Positions 788 to 16,668 of a DNA stretch of 64,000 nt are shown piece after piece; positions within the stretch are counted from its first letter, which is position 1; each line of letters starts with the position of its first letter. The DNA comes from Rhodohalobacter mucosus (GTDB lineage: Bacteria; Bacteroidota; Rhodothermia; Balneolales; Balneolaceae): assembly GCF_003150675.1 (NCBI RefSeq), contig NZ_QGGB01000006.1, positions 62,001-126,000 of the forward strand, given 5' to 3'. The position numbers and the translations under genes were made by a program. Below the pieces are notes generated by a model that saw only the letters and a list, made by a program, of their open reading frames with translations, was not told where the DNA came from and ran no database searches.

Positions 788-2737
788 ATGAAAATCAGTA
801 CGATTCTTGACCAAATAGACATGGGCAGTATGGCACTACCCGAATTTCAGCGAGGTTACGTTTGGAATCGAAACCAGGTACGTGACCTCATGAACTCCCT
901 TTATAAACGTTACCCGGTTGGGAGTCTTTTAGTTTGGGAAACTAAGAGAGATAAAACGGCAGCAAGAGGACAGAGTAATGTAACTGATAACGTTAAAATG
1001 TTATTAGATGGCCAGCAAAGAATGACGTCATTATATGGAATCATTCGTGGCAAGGCACCGAAATTTTTTGACGGTGATCCTAAAGTTTTTACCTATCTGT
1101 ATTTTAATGTTGAAGAGGAAGTTTTCGAGTTTTACGGCCCTATGAAAATGGATGGAAATCCGAGTTGGGTTGACGTGACAGATTTAATGAAAAATGGCAT
1201 AGAACCCTTTATTTCTAAATTCTCTGAAGACCCTGAAAAAAGTAGCTCTTTAGGTTTATACATAAAAAGATTGAACCAAATTCATCAAGTTCAAGAAATT
1301 AACCTGCATGTAGAAGAAATAACCGGTGAAGATAAAGACACAGACACAGTTGTAGAAATCTTCAATAAGGTAAACAGTGGCGGAACTAAGTTATCAAAAG
1401 GTGATTTGGCATTAGCCAAAGTTTGCGGCTCATGGCCGGAAGCTCGTAATGAGTTGAAAGCACGTTTAGAAAGATGGAAAAAAGCAGGATTTGATTTTAA
1501 AATGGATTGGTACTTGCGTTGCATTAATGCTGTGGTAACTGGAGAAGCCAAGTTTCAGAACTTGGACGATATAACTACAAAAGAGTTTAAAGATGGATTA
1601 GAGACAGCTGAAAAAGCAGTTGATAAGCTTTTAAATACAATATCATCTAGGCTTGGATTAGATCATGACAGGGTTCTGGGGAGCGTATATTCCTTTCCTC
1701 TAATGTGCCGCTATATTTACAACAATGGAATGAGTTTAGGCGATCACCGCCAACGAGATCAACTGTTGTACTGGTATATCAATACGATGCTTTGGGGCCG
1801 ATATGCAGCATCTACCGAAAGTACGTTAGATAAGGATTTAGATTTGATTGAGGACACAGATCAACCTATTGAAAATCTTGTCCAGGAATTGCGACAGAAT
1901 CGAGGAGATTTGAAATTGTACGGTAGTGATTTCAAAGGATGGAGCCGGGGCGCTCGATTTTATCCAATGTTGTATATGTTGACACGGGTGTGGCATGCGA
2001 AAGACTGGGGCTCAGGTGATGAGTTATCTCACCATCTTCTGGGTAATTTATGTGGTCTACAACTGCACCATATATTTCCAAAGGCTTATTTGTATGATTC
2101 AGATTACGAAAGGAGGGAAGTAAATGCATTGGCAAATATGACTTTCTTAACCCAAGAAACGAACTTGGAGATTTCAGACAAGCCACCTATACAATATTTC
2201 CCAGAAATCGAAGCTAAACATCCAGGTGTTTTAGCTTCTCACTGGATTCCAATGGATGAAAATTTATGGAAGAAAGAGAACTTTAAAGATTTCCTTGTGG
2301 CACGGCAGGAACTTTTAGCCGAAGCAGCAAATAAGTTCCTGAATGAATTGAAAGAAGGGCATGTGGAAGAAAATGAATTTACACACGATGTCTTTTCGGA
2401 AAAAAGGGAACCACTATATATTCGAGTGGATAGTATCGCTGATCAGGAAGAAGAACAGTTGCTTTCAGATTTACAATCCTGGATGTCTGGACAAGGACTC
2501 CCGGAAGGTGAATGGGGTTATGAAATCTTAGATGAAAATGAAGAACCCCAAGCAATCATTGATTTAGCATGGCCAGATGGCGTGCAAAAATATTTAAGTC
2601 ATCCAGTTGCATTGCTTATTGATGAGGATGAAGAAACAAAGAAAATAGTCAATAAAGCAGGTTTCAGATATTTCACTTCTGCTGAGGAATTTAGAAAGTA
2701 CATTTTAGAGGAGATTTTAGTTTTAAATACGATCTAA
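788..2737 (+). CDS. DUF262/DUF1524 GmrSD-like protein with HNH motif
   Basis: This 649-residue protein has the DUF262 signature D-G-Q-Q-R at residues 74-78 after an N-terminal P-E-F-Q-R-G-Y-V-W motif, and a second conserved patch F-N-K-V-N-S-G-G. The DUF1524/HNH-type motif H427-H428-I-F-P-K432 lies in the middle. DUF262 is a ParB-like fold that uses nucleotide to control a nuclease, and DUF262-DUF1524 proteins (GmrSD, BrxU) are type IV restriction enzymes that cut modified phage DNA. The last 130 or so residues are an acidic extension I cannot assign. It is the first gene of the operon, 49 bases before the DUF499 gene. It could instead act only as a regulator or sensor of the downstream machinery. 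Confidence 0.85.
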   Translation: MKISTILDQIDMGSMALPEFQRGYVWNRNQVRDLMNSLYKRYPVGSLLVWETKRDKTAARGQSNVTDNVKMLLDGQQRMTSLYGIIRGKAPKFFDGDPKVFTYLYFNVEEEVFEFYGPMKMDGNPSWVDVTDLMKNGIEPFISKFSEDPEKSSSLGLYIKRLNQIHQVQEINLHVEEITGEDKDTDTVVEIFNKVNSGGTKLSKGDLALAKVCGSWPEARNELKARLERWKKAGFDFKMDWYLRCINAVVTGEAKFQNLDDITTKEFKDGLETAEKAVDKLLNTISSRLGLDHDRVLGSVYSFPLMCRYIYNNGMSLGDHRQRDQLLYWYINTMLWGRYAASTESTLDKDLDLIEDTDQPIENLVQELRQNRGDLKLYGSDFKGWSRGARFYPMLYMLTRVWHAKDWGSGDELSHHLLGNLCGLQLHHIFPKAYLYDSDYERREVNALANMTFLTQETNLEISDKPPIQYFPEIEAKHPGVLASHWIPMDENLWKKENFKDFLVARQELLAEAANKFLNELKEGHVEENEFTHDVFSEKREPLYIRVDSIADQEEEQLLSDLQSWMSGQGLPEGEWGYEILDENEEPQAIIDLAWPDGVQKYLSHPVALLIDEDEETKKIVNKAGFRYFTSAEEFRKYILEEILVLNTI

Positions 2738-2786
2738 AAAAGCACAAGTAGAATAGAGCACATAAAAAATCATATAGTAGTCATCT

Positions 2787-5700
2787 ATGAAAAACTTACG
2801 TGAACTTTGTGAAGTAAGACAATCAGTTTTCGACAAATCAAGAAGAGACGTTACACTCGATATTTCTGATCTTATCGATGATGATATTGATACAGATCAA
2901 TTTTTTGCAGAAAACTTCATCACCGAGGGAATGAAGAGCCTATATACGGCTGTATTTAAACGCCTTGAAGGTAATTCTGATGATGGGATATTTAAGTTAA
3001 CACAGGCAATGGGCGGAGGTAAAACTCACAGTATGATTGCTGTTGGACTGTTGGCCAAATACCCTGAGTATCGAGAGAAAGTTATGGGAGATGTTTATAA
3101 AACCTCCTTTAAGGGTTCTGCAAAAGTAATCGGATTTACAGGACGCGAAAATCCTAAATACGGTATTTGGGGATATATTGCAGAACAGCTTGGCAAGAAA
3201 GATAAATTCAAGGAGTATTATGATCCATTGGAAGCACCCGGTCAAAGTGCATGGATTAATTTACTAAAAGGTGAACCGATAGTCATTCTTCTGGATGAGC
3301 TACCGCCATATTTCCAGGCAGCTCAGGCAAAACAAATTGGTGACGGGAATCTCGCAGATGTAACTACTCAGGCACTTTCTAATTTATTAGTAGCTATTGG
3401 GAAAAAAGAGCTATCCAATGTATCTCTTGTAATTTCGGATTTGAGTGCTGCCTATACTGAAGGATCGCAGATGATTCGCCAGATTATGGACGATTTTGAA
3501 TCGGAAACGAATCGACTGTCTAAAAATTTTACCCCGGTTCAGCAGAACACCGATGAGATTTATCACATTCTTAGAAAACGACTTTTCTCAAATGAATTTG
3601 ATGAAAAAGAGGTAGAAGAGATCGCTGATGCCTACGCGGAAGCTATTCGGGAAGCCAAGCAAATGGATATCAGCACGGAAACACCAGAAAAGTTCAAGTC
3701 TGCTGTGATGGATTCCTTTCCTTTTCACCCTGCGATTAGAGATCTCTACGCAAGGTTTAAAGAAAACCAGGGATTCATGCAGACCCGGGGTTTGATCCGA
3801 TTGATGCGAACTATTGCAGCTCGGATGTTTGATGAAAATGATGGATGGGCAGAACAGAGATATTTGATTGCACCGGACGACATCGACCTGAATAATCCGG
3901 ATACGCTCACAGAAATTAACAGTATCAACTCGAAACTCAATAATGCTATATCGAAAGATATTGCCGATCACGGTAAGGCTCTTGCAGAACAATTAGACAG
4001 TAAGTTTGGACACAACCTTTCCTCAAGGACTGCGAATCTGATCTTGATGTCATCACTGGCAACAGTCCAAAATGCTGTACGAGGTTTGGCGGATTCCGAA
4101 ATTATCCGAAATCTCTGTGGGCCGGATACGGATATATCCAAAATAAAAACGGAAGTGCTGGAGGAGTTAAAAACGAACTCCTGGTACCTTCACATGGATA
4201 ATACCGGCAAGTTTTTGTATAAAAATGTGCAGAATGTAGTAGCCAAGTTGAATGATTACGTTAAAGGATATAATGAAGAGAGTATCCGTCAGGAGATCAA
4301 AAAACAGCTTGAAGAACTGTTTCAGCCGCAGTTAAAGGATTGCTATCAAAACGTGTATGTATTGCCCTCGATTGATGAGATTGAGGTAGTGCAACAGAAA
4401 GTTTCATTGATTGTCTATCGCCCTCATCCCGGAGGACAACTGCATCCTGACTTACAGAAGCTTTATGATGACAATCAGTATCAAAACCGGATGTTGTTTT
4501 TGACGGGTGACAGCCATTCTATGAGGTCTATTTTTGATAATGCTGCAAACTTGAAAGCAGCGGGTGCAATTCTGGAAGAGTTTAGAAGAGAAAAAATGCC
4601 CAGTGGTGATCCGCAATTTGTAGAAGCGGAGAAGCTGCTTCAAAGTTTTGATCACAGGTTCAGAAGCTCAGTCCGTGAAACTTTCGTGAAGTTATTTTAT
4701 CCGACTAAGAACGGTCTAATGAATGCCAACTTCCAGATGCAGTTTCAGGGAAATAACTACAATGGCGAAGAACAGATTAAAAAGACATTAGAGGAGAAGC
4801 GTAAATTTACAACAGATATTTCTTCAGATAGTTTTGTGCGGCAAGCCGAATCGAAACTATTTATCGACCAAAAAACGCCCTGGTCAGAAATTATAAAACG
4901 CTCTGCAACTCGACCGGATTGGCCCTGGCATAAACCGGATGCTCTCGAGCAGTTGAAAGAGGAGATGATTCGAAAAGATCATTGGCGGCAGGAAGGTAAT
5001 TGGGTTTTGAAAGGTCCGTTTCCTGCCCCACCTACCGGAGTGAATATCAAACAGATTGCTCGTGATGATGATACTGGTGAAGCAACGTTGAAGATTACTC
5101 CACTGCATGGAGATACTGTGTATTTTGAAATTGATTCCAAAGCCACGGAAGCTTCTTTAGAACTGGACACGAGCCAGCCTTATAAAACTAAGGAGCTAAA
5201 ACTCTCATTCTTATGCGTAGATTCTACGGGTGAACATGATACCGGAGAACCGGTTGAGTGGCACAACAGTATCACTCTCAAATATCAGTTTTTTGGAGCC
5301 GGAAATGATAAAAAGCTGGAACTCAAAGCCGCTCCGGATGCCCCAATTAAATACACAACGGATGGATCAGACCCGTTGAATCATTGCGGGATTTATGACG
5401 GACCGATCACGATTCTTGATAATGTAAAATATGTGCTTGCTATCGCAGAAAAAAAAGGAATTCAGTCTGATAAACTCTCGATTCCGGTACCAACTGACCC
5501 ATCTAGTGTTGAAATTGACAAAGAAAAAGAGACAACCTGGCGAAAAAGGGTTAAGAGTGATTCCACTGCAGATACCTTTAAATGGTTAAAATCCATACGA
5601 AAGCACAATGTAAAACTTTCCGAAATTCATATTTCTGTAAACGGACAGCATTGGGTTTCTCTGGATTTTGATGAACGACTTATCCTGAATCATGACAAAC

Positions 5701-5858
5701 TTGAAAAAACTCTTGAATTCATCCAGACAAACCTTCTGGAAGAGGGGGAGGTAATCATTGATGCAGGAAAGTTGCATTTTGATTCCGGTCAACAATTTAT
5801 TGACTATGTAGAAGAGGAAAAAATTGAATATAAAGCCGGTGAAATTGAGCAAAGATAA
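2787..5858 (+). CDS. DUF499 AAA+-type ATPase of an anti-phage cluster
   Basis: This 1023-residue ATPase has Walker A G-G-G-K-T-H (about 76-81) and Walker B I-L-L-D170-E171. DUF499 (COG1483) proteins are large ATPases found with DUF1156 methylases in defence loci; their mechanism is not established. The C-terminal quarter is unusual: around residues 850-905 the pattern Y-T-T-D-G-S-D-P resembles the chitobiase/beta-hexosaminidase C-terminal beta-sandwich, which could be a binding module. The end overlaps the start of the DUF3780 gene, suggesting translational coupling. The likely role is energy-driven movement on, or remodelling of, DNA for the partner methylase and nucleases. Confidence 0.85.
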   Translation: MKNLRELCEVRQSVFDKSRRDVTLDISDLIDDDIDTDQFFAENFITEGMKSLYTAVFKRLEGNSDDGIFKLTQAMGGGKTHSMIAVGLLAKYPEYREKVMGDVYKTSFKGSAKVIGFTGRENPKYGIWGYIAEQLGKKDKFKEYYDPLEAPGQSAWINLLKGEPIVILLDELPPYFQAAQAKQIGDGNLADVTTQALSNLLVAIGKKELSNVSLVISDLSAAYTEGSQMIRQIMDDFESETNRLSKNFTPVQQNTDEIYHILRKRLFSNEFDEKEVEEIADAYAEAIREAKQMDISTETPEKFKSAVMDSFPFHPAIRDLYARFKENQGFMQTRGLIRLMRTIAARMFDENDGWAEQRYLIAPDDIDLNNPDTLTEINSINSKLNNAISKDIADHGKALAEQLDSKFGHNLSSRTANLILMSSLATVQNAVRGLADSEIIRNLCGPDTDISKIKTEVLEELKTNSWYLHMDNTGKFLYKNVQNVVAKLNDYVKGYNEESIRQEIKKQLEELFQPQLKDCYQNVYVLPSIDEIEVVQQKVSLIVYRPHPGGQLHPDLQKLYDDNQYQNRMLFLTGDSHSMRSIFDNAANLKAAGAILEEFRREKMPSGDPQFVEAEKLLQSFDHRFRSSVRETFVKLFYPTKNGLMNANFQMQFQGNNYNGEEQIKKTLEEKRKFTTDISSDSFVRQAESKLFIDQKTPWSEIIKRSATRPDWPWHKPDALEQLKEEMIRKDHWRQEGNWVLKGPFPAPPTGVNIKQIARDDDTGEATLKITPLHGDTVYFEIDSKATEASLELDTSQPYKTKELKLSFLCVDSTGEHDTGEPVEWHNSITLKYQFFGAGNDKKLELKAAPDAPIKYTTDGSDPLNHCGIYDGPITILDNVKYVLAIAEKKGIQSDKLSIPVPTDPSSVEIDKEKETTWRKRVKSDSTADTFKWLKSIRKHNVKLSEIHISVNGQHWVSLDFDERLILNHDKLEKTLEFIQTNLLEEGEVIIDAGKLHFDSGQQFIDYVEEEKIEYKAGEIEQR

Positions 5859-6462
5859 CGTTGAAATCATCGATTTCGGGTTTAAACCTGAAGAATCATT
5901 CCATCATTTTTTGGTTTTGATTCCAAAGGCTAAAGAACAGGATATAATCATTTTCGAGCAATTTGATTACGATGACCAGATCACTATCAACGCACTTCAA
6001 CACATGGTGACTGGAGCTGGTTCAACCGCAAAAATTTTGCTAAGTAGAAAAAAATGGGATCTCATCGAAAGTGAATTACGAGCTGAATTTAACAGAAGGC
6101 TTAAGGGTATGAATTTGAAATCAGCTAAGTGGAAAAAGGGAAAGAACTATCTGCACCGTCTTTTTGGAAAAGAGTTGATGGTATTGGCTTGGGCAATTGA
6201 AGATACAGATCCCGGAACCATTCCATTGGCCATTGAAAACTGGTTAGGGTTGCGACCTGAAGAACGATGGTGGTTATTCACGATGACGAACGCTGCCACA
6301 GGCCACGCGATTAGAGATCGCAATAAAGGCTGGCGAAAAGCTCTTCGGTTTGCCCTGACAGAAAATCCGGTGAGCAGCAGTGGTCTTGACTCCTATCTCA
6401 ATGAACACCGAAAAAACCTTCCACTTTTTGGTGATGAAGATACTATAGAAAGTTTTTCCTAA
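5839..6462 (+). CDS. DUF3780 protein of an anti-phage cluster
   Basis: The protein has about 207 residues, taking the GTG at 5839 as start; a TTG at 5824 would add five residues. Both starts lie inside the end of the DUF499 gene, so the two are probably coupled. It matches the small DUF3780 family that sits between DUF499 and DUF1156 genes, with features such as W-L-G-L-R-P-E-E-R-W-W-L-F and a conserved T-G-H-A. No catalytic motif is visible and the function is unknown. I infer a structural or regulatory subunit of the methylase-ATPase assembly. The next gene starts 93 bases later. Confidence 0.75.
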   Translation: MKLSKDNVEIIDFGFKPEESFHHFLVLIPKAKEQDIIIFEQFDYDDQITINALQHMVTGAGSTAKILLSRKKWDLIESELRAEFNRRLKGMNLKSAKWKKGKNYLHRLFGKELMVLAWAIEDTDPGTIPLAIENWLGLRPEERWWLFTMTNAATGHAIRDRNKGWRKALRFALTENPVSSSGLDSYLNEHRKNLPLFGDEDTIESFS

Positions 6463-6555
6463 TGTACGTTGGGTATTAGTAGAATGTCACTCTGGCCAAA
6501 GGACATTTATTTAATCACTGCTGCCTTGAATTTAAAGTAAATAGATTTAGAGTTG

Positions 6556-9500
6556 ATGAGCTACAGACGATCCTTTATTGAAGCACAATTTCCAGTTTCC
6601 AAGGTTTCGAAAGAGAGCTATAAAGAGCGGAAAGCCGGGGCGAGTCAAACCTTAACAGGTTTGGGTAAATGGTGGGGCCGTAAGCCACTTGTGCTGGTAC
6701 GCGCAACTATTTTTGGACTACTGATGCCTGCCAGTGATGATCCTCAAAAAGACCTGGAAATCTTCCTTAAAATTATGACGATGGATGATAAAGGTCTGCG
6801 AAGAAGACGTTCAAAGAATATGTCATCCAGGCAGTTATTTAGCTATGGTAATCAGGATATTTTTAAAGAGTTGGTTGGAAAAGAGGTTCAGGATTACACA
6901 GAATTGAAAGATCTGCTGGACAGGGATGACAGGTCAAAATTAAATGATATCCTGTTTGACAGGTTAAGTTATGATGACAAGCTTAGTTTTTGTGACCGGC
7001 CAGAGCAAATAGATGGGCCCTCTGAAGAGGCTTGGAATGAGATTAACGAGCATTTGGACACTTCTGCGACCAGTTTACAGGAACTGGTTCAACAGTTAGG
7101 GGAAAAGCAGTTTGGACGAACACCCCGAGTGGGGGATGCCTTTTGTGGTGGCGGGTCCATTCCCTTTGAAGCAGCCCGTATTGGGTGTGAAGCGTATGGT
7201 AGTGATTTGAATCCAGCAGCCGCGCTCCTAACGTGGGCCTCTCTAAACATTATTGGTGGTGGTGAAGAAGTTCAAGAGCGTGTACAAAAAGCCCAGGAAG
7301 AGGCCTTTGAAAAAGCTGACCGGCGGATTACCGAATGGGGCATTGAGCATAACGAAAAAGGATGGCGAGCAGATGCTTACCTGTATTGTGTGGAGGCCAA
7401 GAGCCCTGCAACCGGTTATTGGGTACCGTTGTCTCCAAGCTGGGTGATTAGTGAAAAGTATAAGGTCTGTGCTGTATTAGTACCTGATCATGAAAACAAA
7501 CGCTATAATTTTGAAGTAATAACCGGGGCTGATAAAGCAACAATGGACAAAGCCCGAGAGGGGACTGTACAAAACAGTGAAATGATCTGCCCGGAAACGG
7601 GTGATCGATTTGATATTTCCACCATCCGTGGGGATAACAAAGTGGATGGAGAACGGGTATATGGCCTTCGAATGTGGGAGAATGAGGATATCGTACCTCG
7701 CCCAGATGATGTGTTTCAGGAACGGCTTTACTGTATCCGGTATATCGAGGATATGTATGTTGTCCGAAAAAAAGGTAGCCTAATTGATGTTAAAGGGGAG
7801 GTTCTGCAAAAGTTGAACAAGGGTGATATTCTGACAAAAGAAAAGGTCGAAAATATCCGGAATCTGGAAGAACTTCTTGGGGAGGGAATTTTAAAAGAAG
7901 ATACACGCCGGCATTTCGTAGCACCAAATGAAAAAGACTTAAAAAGAGATGAACGTGTTCTTTATTTACTTCGAGAGAGATTTGATGAGTGGCAGAAGAA
8001 AGGATTTATCCCATCATCACAAATACCGGACGGTGATAAAACGGAAGAACCAAAAAGAACAAGAGGCTGGACACATTGGCATCATCTGTTTAATCCGAGG
8101 CAGCTGCTAACCCACGGATTATTCTTAGAATCATTTTTAGGCGAATCAGACCATTATGAAACTGAAATGTATGCCGCTGCTTGCTTATCAGTTGGTGCAG
8201 CTGTTGATAGGTTGTCACGCTTATGTGGTTGGGATAGTCACAAGTCCAAAGGGCCTGGTACATCAAGAAACGTGTATTTCAATCAAGCCTTAAATACTCA
8301 AATTATATATGGTTGTCGTAGCATAACCGGGCTTAAGTCGTTTTATGTTTTTGAAATTCCTGAAGAAGAGAAGCATGAAAATAGTAATAGAGTTATAACT
8401 GCGGATGCTCGAATTATTGATACAAATTCCGACTTCTGGATAACAGATCCACCGTATGCAGATGCAGTAAATTATCATGAACTTGGTGATTTTTTTGTAG
8501 CGTGGTATGAGAAGTTGATCAAGAAAGCCTTCAGTTTATGGTATGCAGACTCAAGAAGTGCACTTGCAGTGAAGGGTGAAGGAGAATCCTTCAAACAGAG
8601 TATGGTGGAGTGCTATAAAAACTTTACTGAACATATGCCTGATAACGGTGCACAGGTGGTCATGTTTACCCATCAGGACAGCAGCGTGTGGGCGGATCTT
8701 GCCCTGATTCTGTGGGCCTCCGGTCTGCAGGTTACCACTGCCTGGACCATTCAAACCGAAACAGATTCGGCCGGAATTAAAAAGGGTAATTATGTGCAGG
8801 GAACGGTCATCATGGTGCTTCGAAAACGGACGGGGGATGAGATTGGCTTTTTAAGCGACATACAAGCAGATGTAGAGTATGAAGTAGTGAAACAACTCGA
8901 CTATATGACTGCCCTGGATGATGAAGAAGATCCTAACTTTGGGGATGCAGATTACCAATTGGCAGCTTATGCTGCAGCACTACGTGTACTTACTCAGTAC
9001 AACTCCATCGAAGATATTGACGTGGAGTATGAGCTGTCGAAAGAGCGTAAAAAAGGCCAACCCTCCGAAATTGAGAAAATCATCGAAAGTGCAGTGGGTG
9101 TGGCGATGGATCACCTTGTGCCCAACGGTTTTGATGCGGTACAGTGGCGTAAACTCACTCCGGAAGAACGTTTCTACATCAAAGGACTCGAAATTCAGGG
9201 TCACGGGGAATACCGTACCGGCGTGTACCAGGAGATGGCTCGGGGGTATGGACTGAAGAGTTATAGCGAATACCTAAAATCGGGCCGTGCCAACGAAACC
9301 CGCCTGATGACCCCCATCGAATTTGATCGCAAAGAGTTGAACCGCGACGGATTCGGAAAAACCCTCGTTCGGCATGTACTGTTTGCAATACGGGAGGCTC
9401 ACAAAGAAGAGGATCCAATTGCAGGACGAAATTGGCTCAAAAATGAGCTGCCGGATTACTGGGGGCAACGCAAGCAGATCATTCACATTCTGGACTACAT

Positions 9501-9591
9501 GCTCCTTCGATGCACAGACATTCGCCACTGGGAAAAAGACATCAAGACGGTTCGGGTATTGCGCGGTTATCTTGAAAATGATACGGTCTAA
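6556..9591 (+). CDS. DUF1156 adenine-specific DNA methylase-like protein
   Basis: The protein has 1011 residues; ATG 6556 is preferred over the TTG at 6553. The N-terminus carries the DUF1156 pattern G-K-W-W-G-R-K-P. A SAM-binding motif lies at about D194-A-F-C-G-G-G-S with the acidic G-S-D-L-N-P strand after it, and the catalytic D631-P-P-Y634 of N6-adenine methylases is intact. The order (SAM motif before DPPY) and the large insert are typical of COG1743. The zinc-ribbon cysteines usual in that family are only partly visible here. It probably marks host DNA so that the nearby nucleases and helicase attack only unmodified DNA, though it could also sense phage DNA. It ends 11 bases before the helicase gene. 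Confidence 0.85.
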   Translation: MSYRRSFIEAQFPVSKVSKESYKERKAGASQTLTGLGKWWGRKPLVLVRATIFGLLMPASDDPQKDLEIFLKIMTMDDKGLRRRRSKNMSSRQLFSYGNQDIFKELVGKEVQDYTELKDLLDRDDRSKLNDILFDRLSYDDKLSFCDRPEQIDGPSEEAWNEINEHLDTSATSLQELVQQLGEKQFGRTPRVGDAFCGGGSIPFEAARIGCEAYGSDLNPAAALLTWASLNIIGGGEEVQERVQKAQEEAFEKADRRITEWGIEHNEKGWRADAYLYCVEAKSPATGYWVPLSPSWVISEKYKVCAVLVPDHENKRYNFEVITGADKATMDKAREGTVQNSEMICPETGDRFDISTIRGDNKVDGERVYGLRMWENEDIVPRPDDVFQERLYCIRYIEDMYVVRKKGSLIDVKGEVLQKLNKGDILTKEKVENIRNLEELLGEGILKEDTRRHFVAPNEKDLKRDERVLYLLRERFDEWQKKGFIPSSQIPDGDKTEEPKRTRGWTHWHHLFNPRQLLTHGLFLESFLGESDHYETEMYAAACLSVGAAVDRLSRLCGWDSHKSKGPGTSRNVYFNQALNTQIIYGCRSITGLKSFYVFEIPEEEKHENSNRVITADARIIDTNSDFWITDPPYADAVNYHELGDFFVAWYEKLIKKAFSLWYADSRSALAVKGEGESFKQSMVECYKNFTEHMPDNGAQVVMFTHQDSSVWADLALILWASGLQVTTAWTIQTETDSAGIKKGNYVQGTVIMVLRKRTGDEIGFLSDIQADVEYEVVKQLDYMTALDDEEDPNFGDADYQLAAYAAALRVLTQYNSIEDIDVEYELSKERKKGQPSEIEKIIESAVGVAMDHLVPNGFDAVQWRKLTPEERFYIKGLEIQGHGEYRTGVYQEMARGYGLKSYSEYLKSGRANETRLMTPIEFDRKELNRDGFGKTLVRHVLFAIREAHKEEDPIAGRNWLKNELPDYWGQRKQIIHILDYMLLRCTDIRHWEKDIKTVRVLRGYLENDTV

Positions 9592-9602
9592 ATCTTTACC
9601 TG

Positions 9603-12335
9603 ATGATCAAAAGATATTCCTCCAGATCGCACAAAATAGATGAATCGTTCTTAAACGAAAAGCTCCGGAGTGCGGAATCATATGATCGAATTGCCGGGTA
9701 TTTCAGCTCCTCAATTTTGGAAGTTGCGGGTGAGGCTATTGAACAGATTCCTGGTAAAGTACGTATCATATGCAATTCAGATCTACAACAGCAGGATGTA
9801 GCAACAGCCAGAGCTGCGGAAATGGCTATTCGTAAAGAGTGGACATCTAAAGTAGAAATGGAAAAGCTGGAGAAAGCAAACCCTCGCCTACGACGACTCT
9901 TTAAGTTGTTAAAAAGCGGTAAAATGGAAGTTCGTGTATTGCCTTCCGAAGAGTTTGGTCTGATCCACGGTAAAGCAGGGTTAATCACCCAAAAAGATGG
10001 ATCTCAGCTCGCCTTTATGGGGAGTACCAATGAAACGTATTCAGCCTGGAAGCTTAATTATGAAATGCTTTGGGAAGACAGTTCAGATGAAGCCATCGAC
10101 TGGGTAAAGAAAGAGTTTAACGGATTGTGGAACCATCCAAGCGCGGTACCTTTATCAGATTTTGTTATAGAAGATATTGGGAGAATCTCGAAGCGAGTTG
10201 TCATCCGAAAGGAGGAGTGGGAAGAGGATGGTGATCCTGCCGGAGCTGTCGTGGAGACACCGGTATACAGAAAAGAGTATGGGTTATGGCCCCATCAGAA
10301 ATACTTTGTGAAAGTAGCTTGGGATGAATTTCAATCCGGTCGAGGTGCGCGATTTGTGTTGGCTGATCAGGTAGGATTGGGAAAAACCATTCAACTAGCA
10401 CTCACAGCTCTTTTGATTGCTTTAAAAACAAAAGGACCTATTCTCGTTATTGCTCCAAAAACATTGATCTGGCAGTGGCAGGAAGAGATGAAACATCTCT
10501 TAAATATGCCATCAGCTGTTTGGGATGGAAGGCAATGGGTAGATGAAAACGGCATATCTTACCCCTCGTCAGGAAGGGAATCCGTAACAAACTGCCCCAG
10601 AAGGGTTGGTATTCTAAGTCAGGGATTAATTGTGCAAGCAGGAGAGATACCGGATTATCTACTAAATCAGCATTACGAATGTGTCATTGTTGATGAGTGC
10701 CACCGAGCCCGGCGGAAGAATTTGAAGAAAGATGGCGAAAATGAGCCGATTCAGCCTAACAATATGATGGACTTTCTTCTGAAGATCTCACCTAAAACAA
10801 ACAATATGTTACTGGCAACGGCTACTCCGGTTCAACTTTACCCAATTGAGGCTTTTGATCTGTTGACAATTTTAAATAGGGGATCGGATCATGTAATAGG
10901 TGATGAACTCTCTATTTGGAAGCGGGACAAAGCTTATACGTTGGAACTCATCCAGGGCAAGCAGGATGTGCCGGAAGACGTCAATGAAATCTGGGATTGG
11001 GTAAGAAACCCCCTTCCTCCTGCAAATGAAAAAGCACAGCTATTTGGGTTGATCCGGCGTCGGTTACAAAAAAGCCCAACAGATTCTGTAGCAACAGGAC
11101 CTGAATTCAATGATCTGAACCCTGCAGACAAGCGAAGGCTCCAATCCAATGTAGAGTCAATTTTTTCTGAACACAATCCGTTTATTCGGCACATCATACG
11201 ACGAGAAAGAAAATTTTTAGAAGAAACTATAGATCCCAAAACCAATGAACCTTTTTTGAAGCCTGTTCGTGTTCGTCTACATGGTGAGGCAGATCATGAA
11301 GCGGTCACCTTACCCGGTTATCTACGGGATGCTTACCAGAGTGCCGAAGAGTTTTGCGACGAGCTAGGAGAACGAATGCGAGCTGCCGGTTTCATGAGAA
11401 CGATGCTTCTAAGAAGAATGGGTAGTTCCATTCAGGCTGGAAAAAATACAGCTATAAAATTTCTTGGGAACCAGTTTCAAGATTTAGAAGCTGAGGAGGA
11501 AGATTATGTCAGTAGCATCAATGACACAGAAACCCAAAAGGTTGAGACTGAGGAAGATCAGTCGATCATTACCAGCGAAATGACAGATAAGGAGCGAGAA
11601 ATATTAATACGTCTGATCAGTCAGCTTGATTCGCATAAAGATAAGGATCCCAAATACGCCTCGTTGAAGGAGTATCTTTTTAAAAAGAATTGGTTACAGC
11701 TTGGTTGCATCGTTTTCTCCCAATATCACGATACGATCCGTTATATGGCCGACCAACTCTCTGAAGAATTTCCGGAGATCGAAATCGCTATATATGCCGG
11801 GGGCAATAAATCAGGGATCATTAAAAAAGGTGAATTTAAGCCCGAGAAAAAGGAGACGATTAAAGCGAGAGTTCAACGAGGTGAATTAAAACTTCTATTT
11901 GGTACTGATTCAGCCAGTGAGGGGTTGAACTTACAACGACTCGGTACCCTCATTAATCTTGATTTACCCTGGAACCCAACTCGTCTTGAACAGAGGAAAG
12001 GCCGTATTCAAAGAATTGGTCAAACACGAGATGTTGTGGATGTTTACAATATGAGATATAAAGACTCAGTGGAAGATCGTGTGCATGAACTATTATCAGA
12101 TCGTCTGGAAGGTATCTACGACCTATTTGGTCAACTTCCGGATGTGCTTGAGGATGTCTGGATAGAAGTGGCTATAGGTGAGAAGAAACAAGCTGAGAAA
12201 ATTATTAACCAGGTCCCAAAAGAGCATCCTTTTGAAATGAGGTATCACCAGATAGAAAATATCGATTGGGAAACCTGCGAAAGAGTTCTATTTGAGGATG
12301 ATAAGAAGGAGCAATTGTTAAAAGGGTGGAGCTAA
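9603..12335 (+). CDS. PLD-nuclease and SNF2-family helicase fusion
   Basis: This 910-residue protein begins with a phospholipase-D-like domain: H122-G-K124 followed by G-S-T-N-E-T, the one H-x-K motif I can see. A SNF2-type helicase follows with Walker A G258-L-G-K261-T262, motif II D364-E-C-H367 and motif VI Q797-R-K-G-R-I-Q-R-I-G-Q. PLD-SNF2 proteins are frequent in DISARM-like and other defence loci, where PLD domains can act as Mg-independent nucleases, usually as dimers when only one motif is present. It probably translocates on incoming DNA and cuts it. It sits directly after the methylase gene and four bases before the possible TTG start of the next gene. Confidence 0.9.
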   Translation: MIKRYSSRSHKIDESFLNEKLRSAESYDRIAGYFSSSILEVAGEAIEQIPGKVRIICNSDLQQQDVATARAAEMAIRKEWTSKVEMEKLEKANPRLRRLFKLLKSGKMEVRVLPSEEFGLIHGKAGLITQKDGSQLAFMGSTNETYSAWKLNYEMLWEDSSDEAIDWVKKEFNGLWNHPSAVPLSDFVIEDIGRISKRVVIRKEEWEEDGDPAGAVVETPVYRKEYGLWPHQKYFVKVAWDEFQSGRGARFVLADQVGLGKTIQLALTALLIALKTKGPILVIAPKTLIWQWQEEMKHLLNMPSAVWDGRQWVDENGISYPSSGRESVTNCPRRVGILSQGLIVQAGEIPDYLLNQHYECVIVDECHRARRKNLKKDGENEPIQPNNMMDFLLKISPKTNNMLLATATPVQLYPIEAFDLLTILNRGSDHVIGDELSIWKRDKAYTLELIQGKQDVPEDVNEIWDWVRNPLPPANEKAQLFGLIRRRLQKSPTDSVATGPEFNDLNPADKRRLQSNVESIFSEHNPFIRHIIRRERKFLEETIDPKTNEPFLKPVRVRLHGEADHEAVTLPGYLRDAYQSAEEFCDELGERMRAAGFMRTMLLRRMGSSIQAGKNTAIKFLGNQFQDLEAEEEDYVSSINDTETQKVETEEDQSIITSEMTDKEREILIRLISQLDSHKDKDPKYASLKEYLFKKNWLQLGCIVFSQYHDTIRYMADQLSEEFPEIEIAIYAGGNKSGIIKKGEFKPEKKETIKARVQRGELKLLFGTDSASEGLNLQRLGTLINLDLPWNPTRLEQRKGRIQRIGQTRDVVDVYNMRYKDSVEDRVHELLSDRLEGIYDLFGQLPDVLEDVWIEVAIGEKKQAEKIINQVPKEHPFEMRYHQIENIDWETCERVLFEDDKKEQLLKGWS

Positions 12336-12354
12336 TAATTTGGATAATTTCTCA

Positions 12355-13062
12355 ATGAAGAATTCTGATAGATTTATCTCTTTGTTTAAAAAACTGGAAA
12401 AGTTAGTAGCCGAACAATCCCAATTACCAAGAGATGAAAGTTTTAGCAAAATGTTAGCTGAGATTACAAGAGGAAATACTGTATTCAGGCACTATAAAGA
12501 ATATATCCAACAATATGCCAAACTTAGAAATGCTATAGTACACGAAAGTGTAAGCGATGATAAGGCGATAGCTGAACCTCACGATGAGGTATTATCTAGA
12601 CTGGAAGAAATTGTCAAAAAAATCGAGAATCCAGCTAAAGTCATCCCTAAATTTCAGGTTAAGATTGAATCGGTTAAACCTGGGACAATGATTTCAGATG
12701 CACTGGACCGTTTCTATAAAGGAAACTATTCGCAATTACCCGTAATCGAAGATGGAAAATTTTTTGACTTATTAACTACTGATGCGGTTGCAAGGTGGAT
12801 TGCAGCTCATAAAGAGAAAGGTGGATACTTATTAGAAAATGTAGCTATCCGTGAAGTATTACCTTACAAGGAAGTACAAGATAATTTTAGTTTCATTTCA
12901 AGAAGAACAACACTTCTTGATGTCCTAGAGATTTTTAGGAAAATCGATTATAAAGAGCAACCACTTGACGCTCTTCTGATTACGAATGATGGAAAAAAAG
13001 AACAAAAATTGATGGGTATTATAACTCATTATGATGTTTCAAAAATTTACTCACTAATATAA
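12355..13062 (+). CDS. HEPN-like and CBS-domain fusion protein
   Basis: The protein has 235 residues from ATG 12355; a TTG at 12340 would add five. The N-terminal helical part contains R58-N-A-I-V-H63, an R-x4-H arrangement in the context Y-A-K-L-R-N-A-I-V-H-E, as in HEPN ribonucleases. Two CBS-like repeats follow, about 103-160 (with I-S-D-A-L-D and Q-L-P-V-I) and 165-235 (ending in G-I-I-T-H-Y-D-V). CBS pairs bind adenosyl ligands such as AMP, ATP or SAM. My inference is a ligand-gated RNase that triggers dormancy when the system is activated or subverted. It lies only 19 bases past the helicase stop, so it is probably part of the operon. A non-catalytic regulator is the main alternative. 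Confidence 0.6.
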   Translation: MKNSDRFISLFKKLEKLVAEQSQLPRDESFSKMLAEITRGNTVFRHYKEYIQQYAKLRNAIVHESVSDDKAIAEPHDEVLSRLEEIVKKIENPAKVIPKFQVKIESVKPGTMISDALDRFYKGNYSQLPVIEDGKFFDLLTTDAVARWIAAHKEKGGYLLENVAIREVLPYKEVQDNFSFISRRTTLLDVLEIFRKIDYKEQPLDALLITNDGKKEQKLMGIITHYDVSKIYSLI

Positions 13063-13072
13063 TGCATTACTT

Positions 13073-13383
13073 ATGTCTGACATCAAGCTCTTCCAATTGA
13101 AAGACCAGGAAGTGACTGAACTCACAGGTTCTGCCGTAAAAATCGAAAAATCCCTCCAAGATCAGATTGAGAAAAATCTTGATACGTACCTGGGTGTTAG
13201 GTTTCTAGCTACCGAATATTCAACAGGCTCTAACCATGGCGGTAGGATTGATACGTTGGGTATTGATGAAAACGGCAGCCGGTCGACATCGAGTACAAGC
13301 GGTCGATGAATGAGAACGTGATAAGCCAGGGGTTGTTTTATCTGGATTGGATGATGGGTCATAAACTGAGTTTGAGCCTTTGA
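13073..13383 (+). pseudogene. Frameshifted DUF5655/NucS-like nuclease remnant
   Basis: The first frame encodes about 69 residues that match the start of DUF91/DUF5655-type proteins (L-G-V-R-F-L-A-T-E-Y-S-T-G, then G-G-R-I-D-T-L-G-I-D). At about 13279 the match jumps to the +2 frame, which continues I-E-Y-K-R (the E-x-K of a PD-(D/E)xK nuclease), N-E-N-V-I-S-Q-G-L-F-Y-L-D-W, and stops at TGA 13381-13383. One missing C in the G-S-P codons explains the shift. The family is far longer, so the 3' part is also lost. It follows the HEPN-CBS gene by 10 bases and is most likely an operon member that died. Confidence 0.7.
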
Positions 13384-13454
13384 TTTTGAAGAGTTATGAA
13401 GAGAATTGAAACATGGAAAGGTTAGGGACGTTTAATTGCCACTTACGTTAAATT

Positions 13455-14015
13455 TCATTCCGCCCATTCTTTAAATGTATCAATGTAGGAAACAAAAGTA
13501 GGATTTATTTTATCTCTCTCAATTTGGTATAACAGTTCACCAAGTTTCTTTTTGCCCCATTCTTTATCGTGGAATTGTTCCCTTTCAAGCAGATTATACA
13601 GGTCCGTGCAGCAATCAAATTTAATCTTTGAACTCTCTGGACAGATTTTAGTGCCTGTCAACAGTGCTTCAAAGCTGGCAGTGTCACCATTTTCCTGTCT
13701 TATAAATGCCGAAATATTCAGTATCAAATCTTCCAGTGAATCGTAATCAAAGTGATTTTGGAGATCCATTAGTATCACTTTGGCTTTCTGTTTGAAAGTG
13801 CTTGTATCTACAATCGGCGGTTCGTCAGAATAACCTACCAGTATGCCGCGAAGCAAATGTACCGGGGAAAGTCCGCCAGGATTGGATTCTTCAAACTGCT
13901 GTTTGTCATTGCCATCAACAAAGTAGGGAAGTGCAAAGTCTTTAGAATCCATAATGCGCTGCCCTACGTCAGAGTCTTTAGAAAACGGTATCCATATGAT
14001 TGAATATTCTTTCAT
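13455..14015 (-). CDS. Uncharacterised protein paired with a SeqA-like gene
   Basis: This 186-residue acidic protein matches no family I recognise. It begins with a beta-strand-like stretch (I-I-W-I-P-F) and is otherwise predicted helical with several charged segments; there is no signal peptide or membrane segment. It lies 74 bases downstream of the SeqA-like gene on the same strand, so the two probably form an operon. It sits right after the defence island on the opposite strand and has similar AT-rich composition, which suggests accessory origin. No function is proposed. Confidence 0.6.
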   Translation of the reverse strand: MKEYSIIWIPFSKDSDVGQRIMDSKDFALPYFVDGNDKQQFEESNPGGLSPVHLLRGILVGYSDEPPIVDTSTFKQKAKVILMDLQNHFDYDSLEDLILNISAFIRQENGDTASFEALLTGTKICPESSKIKFDCCTDLYNLLEREQFHDKEWGKKKLGELLYQIERDKINPTFVSYIDTFKEWAE

Positions 14016-14089
14016 GTTGCCTGATATCCTGTATGCATCATTACACTAACTGCTCCAAATTATATGCGGGAGTAAAACACCTTATTCCG

Positions 14090-14977
14090 CTACTTAAGCC
14101 TGACTTTTATTTTATGCTTTAGGCTTGGTGCCAGCATCTCTGTAAGGTTCAAGATGTTTCGTATGTGGCTTGGGGCATTGTACTTTGAATCAAAGTAAAT
14201 ACCTTCTTCAACTTTATTCCATTGCCCATCGTAAGTCTCAAGCTTATGCCGGGGTTTTGAGTTGATAAAGTATTTATTGCTTGTCGCATCAATTGGAAGC
14301 ATGCTTTGGTTCAAAAGCCCGTTTTCGAGAAACCATCGAATAACTGCTTCATCAAATTCAGTCCAGGAGTTGACCTCAAATTCATTTTCATCAATACGAA
14401 CGGAAGCAGGTTTGCTTTTGAACAAGCGATCTGCATGTTTGTACAAAACCTCTATTGCTACATGTTCGCTGGTAGTATCCTTATCGCCACCTTGATTGCT
14501 CACTTTCCTTCTCGAGCTATTAATCGGATTAGTTTTGATTATTTCATTAAAGAATCCTTCAATTATGTTTCTGTAATCTTGAAACTTGTTTAACAGAATT
14601 CTTTTGAACTCCGGCAGATTTTGATCTTCAAGCAAACTGTCAACTTCACTTGTTGTTTTGTCAAGTTGCCTGCCATACTTATCCAGTACAGTTTCTCTTC
14701 TCACTTTATGTCTTTTGGAGACTGCCTTGGTAGCATCAACCCGGGAAAGTCCTCTTTTCTTAACTAAATGTATCACTTCCAATATATGCTGAAGAGCGGT
14801 TGGGATACTGCTTGGCAAAGAAGGGAATAGCTGAGAGGGGCTTACTGTGGGTGTTAATTCTTTATTTTGAAATAATTCTCTTCTCAGAATTGAGTTTGGG
14901 GTATCTCCGAAGTCTTCAATTTTGTTAAGGAGGTATTGCCGGACCTCTTCATCGATCTCGATATTATAATATTTCAT
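14090..14977 (-). CDS. DNA-binding protein with SeqA-like N-terminus
   Basis: This 295-residue protein has residues 1-35 resembling the SeqA N-terminal oligomerisation/ribbon-helix-helix-like motif (I-E-I-D-E-E-V then S-I-L-R-R-E-L-F). SeqA represses replication initiation by binding hemimethylated GATC. The middle has an alpha-helical segment with V-K-K-R-G-L-S-R-V-D-A-T that could be a DNA-binding helix-turn-helix. The C-terminal part (about 195-290) contains W-T-E-F-D-E-A-V and ends in a basic strand; I do not recognise it. It is much longer than SeqA and lacks a recognisable SeqA DNA-binding domain. It is probably a DNA-binding regulator of the pair with the downstream gene. Confidence 0.55.
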   Translation of the reverse strand: MKYYNIEIDEEVRQYLLNKIEDFGDTPNSILRRELFQNKELTPTVSPSQLFPSLPSSIPTALQHILEVIHLVKKRGLSRVDATKAVSKRHKVRRETVLDKYGRQLDKTTSEVDSLLEDQNLPEFKRILLNKFQDYRNIIEGFFNEIIKTNPINSSRRKVSNQGGDKDTTSEHVAIEVLYKHADRLFKSKPASVRIDENEFEVNSWTEFDEAVIRWFLENGLLNQSMLPIDATSNKYFINSKPRHKLETYDGQWNKVEEGIYFDSKYNAPSHIRNILNLTEMLAPSLKHKIKVRLK

Positions 14978-15337
14978 GGGTTTCTCTTTTTTTACTTTTA
15001 ATACTACAAATATTATAGTAAATATAGTAACTAAAGTGAAATCGAAATGTCGCTCTTTGCAAAAAAAAATCAGATTTTAAAGCTGACACTCGTCCATCGA
15101 TCATTGACCATCTACCAAAAAAATCAGTCCACTGCTTCCTCGTCCTCGTCCTCGTTTTCATCAGAATCTGAATTGCCAAGGTTGCAGGAGAGTATTTCAT
15201 CAACTTCTTCGCCGATGATTGATATGTAATGGATAGACTTTCCGGAATGAACGGAACCGGCTGATTCTGAATGCCATCAGTCAAACAGAATGCCATTTAC
15301 TGCTAATCGTGAATAAGAACGCAAGAACTCTTGTTTT
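14978..15337. other. Gene-poor gap with a decayed gene
   Basis: Apart from the acidic-tail remnant on the minus strand, this stretch shows no convincing gene. An A-run at 15059-15069 and a short heptamer-like patch (CATCGATCATTGACCATC, around 15095-15112) resemble the repeats seen elsewhere. The plus-strand palindrome CAAGA-AC-TCTTG at 15322-15333 followed by T6 could act as a weak terminator overlapping the VWA stop codon. Confidence 0.4.
15124..15276 (-). pseudogene. Possible remnant of a gene with an acidic C-terminal tail
   Basis: A minus-strand frame is open from 15276 (after an in-frame stop) to TGA at 15126-15124. It reads I-H-Y-I-S-I-I-G-E-E-V-D-E-I-L and then a run of Asp/Glu, which looks like a genuine protein end rather than chance translation. 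No start codon exists in this frame; upstream protein-like sequence continues in another frame (F-I-P-E-S-L), which suggests a frameshift. I cannot name the family. Confidence 0.3.
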
Positions 15338-15925
15338 TTACTTTTTTCTGTAATCAGATACACGAATGCTCATATCATTGTAAGCTGATCGTACTCCTTC
15401 ATCTGTCGCTGCGAAGTTAAATGCATCTTTATTGTCAATGCCTATTTTGTAAGCTTCTGAGAAAGCATCCTGATTCGCTCCCAGAAAGATAAACTCCCAT
15501 GAGTACTTTTCCTTCTGGTGCTTGATCATTTTTTTGATTTTTGACAAATGGTATTCTTTGCTGGAGTTTTCCTGCCCGTCCGTTAGAATGGCAACAATCA
15601 CCTTTTCAGGCCGGTTTGCTTCCGGCGTATTGGCCAATCTCTTGCCTGTACTGTCAATGGTAAACCCCACGGCATCCAGCAATGCGGTCGCTCCGCCGGG
15701 TATAAAATCATCATCTGTTATCGGTTCCACGTTGTTAAGAGGCTTGTTCTCATGAACGACCTCCATCTCCGTATTGAACTGAACAAACGTAAACGAAGCC
15801 TCTCCCGGCTGCTTTTTCTGTTCGGCCAGAAAGGTGTTGAAGCCTCCGATCGCGTCACTCTTAATCGTATTCATAGATCCCGATCTGTCAATAATGCAAA
15901 GTATCTCTGATAGTCCCTTTTTCAT
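15338..15925 (-). CDS. VWA-domain protein
   Basis: This 195-residue protein is a single von Willebrand factor A domain. The metal-ion site is intact: D13-R-S15-G-S17-M, T80 in the P-G-G-A-T loop, and D116-G in L-T-D-G-Q-E. Such stand-alone cytoplasmic VWA proteins resemble TerY/YfbK-type proteins that mediate metal-dependent protein contacts, often in stress or tellurite-related loci. A Shine-Dalgarno-like AAGGAG lies five bases before the ATG, which supports the start. No ter-type partner is nearby, so the binding partner is unknown. It is flanked upstream by a GGTAGTT heptamer array. Confidence 0.85.
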   Translation of the reverse strand: MKKGLSEILCIIDRSGSMNTIKSDAIGGFNTFLAEQKKQPGEASFTFVQFNTEMEVVHENKPLNNVEPITDDDFIPGGATALLDAVGFTIDSTGKRLANTPEANRPEKVIVAILTDGQENSSKEYHLSKIKKMIKHQKEKYSWEFIFLGANQDAFSEAYKIGIDNKDAFNFAATDEGVRSAYNDMSIRVSDYRKK

Positions 15926-15938
15926 TTTTCTCCTTGTT

Positions 15939-15978
15939 TTGTTGGTAGTTGGTAGTTGGTAGCTAGTGGTTGGTGGTA
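15939..15978. repeat. Degenerate 7-nt array (GGTAGTT type)
   Basis: The unit GGTAGTT repeats with drift to AGTGGTT just upstream of the VWA gene on the minus strand. It belongs to the general class of heptamer arrays in this window. Confidence 0.6.
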
Positions 15979-16176
15979 CTCTGATTTAATATCGGTATTG
16001 TGAGTGACAACGTGGTGTCACCGCATCCAAAATTATTTTGAGTATGGATTCTTGACGATCTATTGGAACTTAGTTTAGCCAACTAATAATTGGCTATTCA
16101 GTAAGCAGATGTGATGGCATCGGTATAAGAATTTAATCTTTTTGAGATGGGTTCATAAAGTGTATCGGGCCTTTGT

Positions 16177-16668
16177 TTACCCGAGGGTCAATTCTCCATC
16201 AGCAATCATCAAGCACCTCCTGATCATCTCCCTATCCGCAAAGCCTTCCTTGTCGGACGTCTGAATAAAATGCGGAAACCGCTCGCTGATGCCGTTGTCG
16301 TTGTCATCCAGGATGAGATGAAGGCCGTTGTTGGCATCATTTTCATCGATCCAGGCCTGAATGGCTTCGCCGCGGGTGGCGGATCGGTCTTCGTAAATGA
16401 GGCTGGGAATGACGCCGGTCACATGGTCCGGATTCATCCCGTTTTGATGAAACAGCTTTTTCAGTTCATCCAGGGAATATTCATAACGCCAGGTGGAGGT
16501 GACCACAATTTGGGCACCCAGTTTTTCGGTGAGCAGATTGATATGCGCCGCGGCCATGGGGCACCAGTCGAACCGTGACGGTTTCTTTCCGTTTTTCGCC
16601 TGTCGGCGGAGGTGGTTTTTTGTGTTGAGGACTCTTCCTATTACTTTTGAGTGATCAAAAGTAATCAA
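16177..16668 (-). pseudogene. HAD-family phosphatase truncated by a palindromic repeat
   Basis: The frame encodes 163 residues. From residue 11 on it matches HAD-like proteins of the kind found in RNA-repair 'Swiss army knife' proteins: V-L-N-T, then I-V-V-T-S-T-W-R (motif II) and L-I-L-D-D-N-D (motif IV). The family begins with D-x-D-G-V-L-N, which carries the nucleophile; here the residues before V-L-N-T are M-I-T-F-D-H-S-K-V-I, translated from the hairpin of the repeat at 16640-16833. The catalytic aspartates are therefore gone and the remaining upstream gene cannot be found beyond the repeat. I treat it as dead, although it still has an open frame. Confidence 0.7.

Follow-up and report, generated by a model that had tools for sequence, protein, structure and literature searches.

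A Type-2 BREX-related core with GmrSD-like and HEPN-CBS genes at its ends in Rhodohalobacter mucosus

The 64 000 nt stretch of Rhodohalobacter mucosus DNA analysed here (the window) contains a compact set of six genes that had been predicted to form a layered defence system of novel composition. The question raised by this locus is whether the six genes are parts of one system or a described system with neighbours of separate origin. All six ORFs lie on the forward strand at positions 788–13062 and, in the ORF listing, are intact with no internal stops, consistent with the compact same-strand arrangement originally described. The gaps between them are, in order, 49, -35, 90, 11 and 4 nt. Domains and families were assigned using the Pfam, NCBIfam and PADLOC HMM libraries. 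The gene content, families and motifs were observed directly, as was the rarity of the combination, and the set is very probably a composite defence cassette made up of a known Type-2 BREX-related (BR) core and two portable accessory genes, one at each end and in the same orientation, which would add the layers of defence set out below.

The four internal genes were examined for the features of Type-2 BR systems. The first of them (2787–5858, forward strand) encodes a DUF499 AAA+ ATPase that matched PDLC02192 over its full length (E 7.7e-226) as well as PF04465, with a Walker A motif (GGGKT) at residue 76 and a Walker B motif (LLDE) at 168–171 that includes D170-E171. It also matched NF042962 (E 1.3e-263), scoring 877 bits, below the cut-off of 1200. 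The next gene (5824–6462, forward strand), whose start overlaps the end of the ATPase gene and which has an alternative in-frame GTG start at 5839, encodes a protein with the DUF3780 domain that is diagnostic of Type-2 BR (PF12635, E 8e-53; PDLC02191); it scored 176 bits against an NCBIfam equivalog cut-off of 200. Though both proteins fall below the equivalog cut-offs, these were their sole NCBIfam matches and span most of each protein. The third gene (6553–9591, forward strand) encodes a DUF1156 N6-adenine DNA methyltransferase (NF042963, 1392 bits, above the cut-off of 1000; PF06634) with the motifs DAFCGGGS at 195 and DPPY at 632, the aspartate being D632 when counted from the TTG start and D631 when counted from the ATG. 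The fourth (9603–12335, forward strand) encodes the predicted core effector, an HKD/PLD nuclease-SNF2 helicase (NF042964, 1284 bits, above the cut-off of 1100; PDLC02193, E 1.2e-247) in which a PLDc_2 domain (19–176) is followed by SNF2 and Helicase_C domains, and the motifs HGK (122–124), GLGKT (258, including K261), DECH (364) and QRKGR (797) are present.

The same four genes were reportedly recovered in the computational defence-gene screen of Gao et al. in 2020. In a 2026 NAR paper (PMC12839542), Type-2 BR is defined by a DUF499 ATPase, a stand-alone DUF3780 protein, an N6-methylase and an HKD-helicase, and is recorded in 1120 taxa, with the stand-alone DUF3780 in 98% of them and with the HKD nuclease of the helicase replacing an N-terminal tudor domain. 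Because all four proteins match PADLOC and NCBIfam anti-phage families and conform to this definition, the four genes are, by sequence, a textbook example of a complete Type-2 BR system, alike in gene content, order, domains and motifs (NF042961–NF042964; PDLC02189–02193; PMC12839542). The defence role originally proposed is borne out, and the core, which had been regarded as partly described, proved to be described in full. What distinguishes the locus from Type-2 BR is the GmrSD gene upstream and the HEPN-CBS gene downstream; CBS does not appear in the main text of PMC12839542, the supplement of which may list such neighbours. The same paper attributes tandem beta-sandwich domains preceding the C-terminal domain of DUF499 to about half of Type-2 members; here, a Fn3-associated/CHB_HEX_C match (PF13290, PF13287) was found at residues 841–894 of the ATPase, as a single region with no tandem pair resolved.

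Other named systems share only parts of this core. Hma (helicase-methylase-ATPase), which corresponds to Type-1 BR, has a related DUF499 ATPase and methylase, and weaker HmaC and HmaB matches were found here, but according to PMC12839542 it is without DUF3780 and has a C-terminal REase nuclease in place of the N-terminal HKD nuclease seen here. The original prediction had noted that PLD-SNF2 helicases are seen in DISARM-like loci. DISARM also combines an SNF2 helicase with PLD domains, but here PLD is fused to the helicase and the cassette is without DrmA and DrmB genes: PADLOC and NCBIfam HMMs found neither as a family in the cassette, only helicase-domain cross-matches, and the DrmD score was 156 bits against a cut-off of 610. 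With DrmA and DrmB missing, DISARM membership was ruled out, and the core is of Type-2 BR kind rather than DISARM-like. Membership in BREX (types 1–6) was ruled out in the same way, as BrxC and PglZ are missing; Pfam, NCBIfam and PADLOC gave no match to BrxC/PglY or PglZ in the cassette.

The gene in front of the core (788–2737, forward strand) encodes a fused GmrSD-like Type IV restriction enzyme of 649 aa, in which DUF262 (GmrSD_N; PF03235, E 6.5e-31) and DUF1524/HNH (GmrSD_C; PF07510, E 1.8e-5) domains are found in a single chain, with DGQQR at 74 and HHIFPK at 427 (HH 427–428). It matched PADLOC HEC-05 (E 5e-50) and, over part of the chain, the BrxU structure 7p9k (phmmer, E 4.6e-11). BrxU cuts DNA containing modified cytosine and, on one plasmid, complements BREX, a pairing that was tested experimentally (PMC8565348), and GmrSD enzymes as auxiliary nucleases of BREX and BR are a published theme. 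The two enzymes (PDB 7P9K, PMC8565348) are alike in fusing DUF262 to HNH and in lying beside a methylation-based system, but the GmrSD protein here is distant in sequence, has an additional C-terminal segment of about 130 aa and lies beside BR instead of BREX. Those residues after the HNH domain (encoded by 2345–2734) match no Pfam family. Relatives sharing 50–57% identity were found in other settings: one on a plasmid of Nostoc adjoins DISARM, one in Paracoccus precedes genes for DruE/DpdE-like helicases and for a methylase, and one in Nostoc edaphicum has no such defence partner annotated nearby. Upstream of the GmrSD gene, a 148-aa ORF (281–727) gave no matches in the three libraries.

The gene behind the core (12340–13062, forward strand) encodes a 240-aa accessory protein, a candidate RNase, with a CBS region at the C-terminus (PF00571, E 8e-12) and an N-terminal HEPN-type region containing the Rx4H motif R63-N-A-I-V-H68. 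None of the three libraries called a HEPN domain in this protein. The motif does not vary among six full-length sequences and persists in truncated copies, and the identification of the N-terminal region as HEPN, by Rx4H motif instead of a database match, is a well-supported inference. The N-terminal region is helical in a low-confidence single-sequence AlphaFold model (pLDDT 39). With this one assignment made by motif, the gene identities given originally agree with those obtained from the libraries, and every motif named there was located, D631 of the methylase being D632 from the TTG start. A candidate ribosome-binding site (GGTGGAG; 12326–12342, forward strand) lies within the 3′ end of the helicase gene and precedes the TTG start codon of HEPN-CBS by 8 nt, and for this reason translation of the HEPN-CBS gene appears to be coupled to that of the BR helicase.

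HEPN-CBS fusions were earlier predicted to link nucleotide sensing with RNA stability. One such protein, DS-11, is a validated antiphage system of one gene that works alone, and loses defence when either the HEPN catalytic residues or the CBS ligand site are mutated, the CBS residue needed for defence being a predicted adenine-nucleotide contact (PMC13092281). The protein here resembles DS-11 in combining a CBS domain and a HEPN motif in one small protein, but it scored 22.1 bits against the cut-off of 260 of NF053863 (DS11_antiphage), through the CBS part alone, and sits directly behind a BR helicase. By analogy it may work like DS-11 while not being classed as such. The NF053863 model itself returned no matches in 198 same-phylum genomes, and none in controls either, so that this result says nothing about absence. 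The closest relative among 394 same-phylum genomes was found in a genome of the same family (G360), divergent and beside a type I BREX operon (L047, 9754–19976) with BrxA-BrxB-BrxC-PglX, preceded by a small gene with a weak BrxE match. Relatives in Chlorohelix and Rhodococcus were near a Type III-like methylase/endonuclease pair, one in Corynebacterium was beside a SIR2-HerA pair and a type I RM system, and one in another Rhodococcus adjoined an HNH gene with no methylase annotated nearby. Contigs from Enterococcus and Listeria in a phage collection, which lack annotation, yielded further relatives, and a scan of viral contigs with the HEPN-CBS protein gave no match.

To determine whether the six-gene set recurs, the locus was compared with 24 other loci containing genes of the core, made up of 12 plasmids, two E. 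coli chromosomes from two lineages, five cyanobacterial contigs and five genomes of the same phylum. These came from one narrow genome-contig scan (a single helicase, five loci only, with search peptides that were not the conserved ones), sampled genomes of one phylum, a plasmid collection and the two E. coli loci, a smaller sample than a large survey would give. Generic helicase domains scored against NF042964 in nearly every genome of the phylum and only far higher scores were counted; on that basis the core helicase was present in six of 394 same-phylum genomes; two of the 394 contained a full-length relative of HEPN-CBS. Approximately 21 of the 24 loci extend 1 kb or more past the helicase, and approximately 18 reach 1 kb or more upstream of DUF499. 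Several are contig fragments with part of the core only. Complete loci retain the order DUF499, DUF3780, DUF1156, PLD-SNF2, in some cases interrupted by additional genes, and the core was found without the flanking genes seen here in Pseudomonadota, Thermomicrobiota, Deinococcota, Cyanobacteria and others. The flanks themselves vary, and include a TIR protein, a VapC pair, a restriction endonuclease, two DUF262 genes and conjugation genes, amongst others.

Neither the HEPN-CBS family, for which a leave-one-out search with the profile recovered each member at E ≤ 1e-41, nor the GmrSD family of the window was detected at any of the 24 loci by profile search and tblastn, and none has the full six-gene set. 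Two of them (Methylocystis and Lichenicola) have annotated DUF262 genes next to the core that do not belong to the same GmrSD family; those in Methylocystis occupy the slot behind the BR helicase. In E. coli UMNK88 (L075, 11706–15322), a restriction endonuclease gene overlaps the end of the Type-2 BR helicase gene, in the slot taken here by HEPN-CBS. As the window was picked for its content, a single co-occurrence of six genes carries no significance. The novel six-gene system was rejected by this neighbourhood comparison: within the searched sample the flanking genes lie next to the core only here, which is the refuting condition set originally, so the claim of a new composition fails. Both families sit beside other systems elsewhere, and for that reason the GmrSD and HEPN-CBS genes are portable accessory genes. 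A version with the complete set of six might still occur in some rare clade.

Composition separates the cassette from its surroundings and the end genes from the core. The G+C content of the cassette is 0.414, as against 0.50 in the flanks, confirming the AT-rich island originally noted. At 0.333 and 0.387, respectively, the GmrSD and HEPN-CBS genes are lower in G+C than every stretch of the core of equal length. The lower G+C and the relatives beside unrelated systems are consistent with separate arrival and separate histories of these two genes. The decay reported on the flanks was found on the 3′ side, where a frameshifted remnant ORF (13072–13400, forward strand; three-frame translation) directly follows the HEPN-CBS gene, one frame reading MSDIKLFQLKDQEV...RIDTLGIDENG and the other continuing VDIEYKRSMNENVISQGLFYLDWMMGHK. 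By eye, it looks like a decayed member of the PD-(D/E)XK-type nuclease family, and it forms the boundary of the intact cassette.

The original reading, that this is a single integrated system with GmrSD and HEPN-CBS as indispensable subunits, draws on the common strand, the short gaps and the apparent translational coupling at one end, but it is highly improbable given that the combination is found at no other locus, that the core is conserved across several phyla without the flanking genes, and that these genes differ from it in G+C. At the other extreme, three unrelated defence units might have been stacked by chance in an island, with nothing but mobility in common. Defence genes do cluster generally, the end genes are mobile and compositionally distinct, and a decayed nuclease-like remnant adjoins the cassette; set against the tight same-strand spacing and the precedent of a GmrSD enzyme complementing BREX, these points leave stacking a rather unlikely account, though one of some weight. 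With gaps of 49 nt before and 4 nt after the core and a sequence like a ribosome-binding site in the helicase gene, co-expression of the flanking genes with the core, and some functional coupling, is plausible.

A more specific form of coupling would have HEPN-CBS act as a guardian of a BR, BREX or RM core, its RNase firing when the core is inhibited or adenine nucleotides shift, in the way of PrrC or PARIS next to restriction systems. The gene is 4 nt from the BR helicase and apparently coupled to it, its closest same-phylum relative is divergent beside type I BREX, other relatives are near the Type III-like pair or SIR2-HerA and type I RM, and the same slot is taken by nuclease genes elsewhere (the UMNK88 endonuclease and the Methylocystis DUF262 genes). 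The relatives are only a handful and mostly lie by different systems, a pattern that general clustering of defence genes would also produce; in addition, DS-11 acts alone, one relative has no annotated methylase nearby, and HEPN-CBS is absent from all 24 other core loci. We therefore regard the guardian role as speculative and improbable. The broader proposal, in which the family as a whole would consist of nucleotide-sensing RNase guardians that associate with methylation-based systems (BR, BREX, Type III-like RM) and abort infection once the partner system is inhibited, and the slot behind the BR helicase would be swappable, is a similarly long shot.

In the composite cassette that we favour, the biochemical steps and the independent action of the layers are inferred. 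Judging from its family, the DUF1156 methylase would mark host DNA at N6-adenine, while the DUF499 ATPase would scan DNA and assemble the restriction complex, DUF3780 would probably sense whether DNA is modified, and the PLD-SNF2 helicase would translocate on and cut unmarked phage DNA. Since BrxU cleaves modified-cytosine DNA and complements BREX, a comparable division of labour is expected here, with the GmrSD protein cutting modified-cytosine phage DNA that would evade the core, in the manner of BrxU at BREX loci. HEPN-CBS is a likely RNase that would be restrained by its adenine-nucleotide-sensing CBS module and freed on infection, as proposed for DS-11. The front add-on is a common kind of extra DNA-cutting gene and the rear one is of a rarer, RNA-cutting type. 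The cassette illustrates how a described RM-like core can carry interchangeable back-up nucleases, and offers a natural compact construct in which restriction of unmodified DNA, restriction of modified DNA and a nucleotide-gated RNase could be separated by gene deletion. The new point is a modest one: a HEPN-CBS gene lies 4 nt behind a BR helicase, and within the same taxonomic family a relative adjoins type I BREX. This provides a small lead on the trigger of CBS-gated HEPN effectors.

Promoter and terminator scans performed no better than on shuffled sequence. In a genome of the same genus, 188 kb separate FtsH from PaaC, and apart from FtsH itself little of the stretch next to it aligned with the window, so that the comparison did not define an empty insertion site. 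The reverse strand at 13455–16668, lying between the cassette and FtsH, contains small AT-rich ORFs that encode a VWA protein, an HAD_SAK_2 protein, a protein matching the SeqA N-terminal family (E 1.9e-7) and two others without a family assignment. Further along the window, positions 19919–21898 encode a protein-L-isoaspartate methyltransferase fused to an erythromycin-esterase-like domain.
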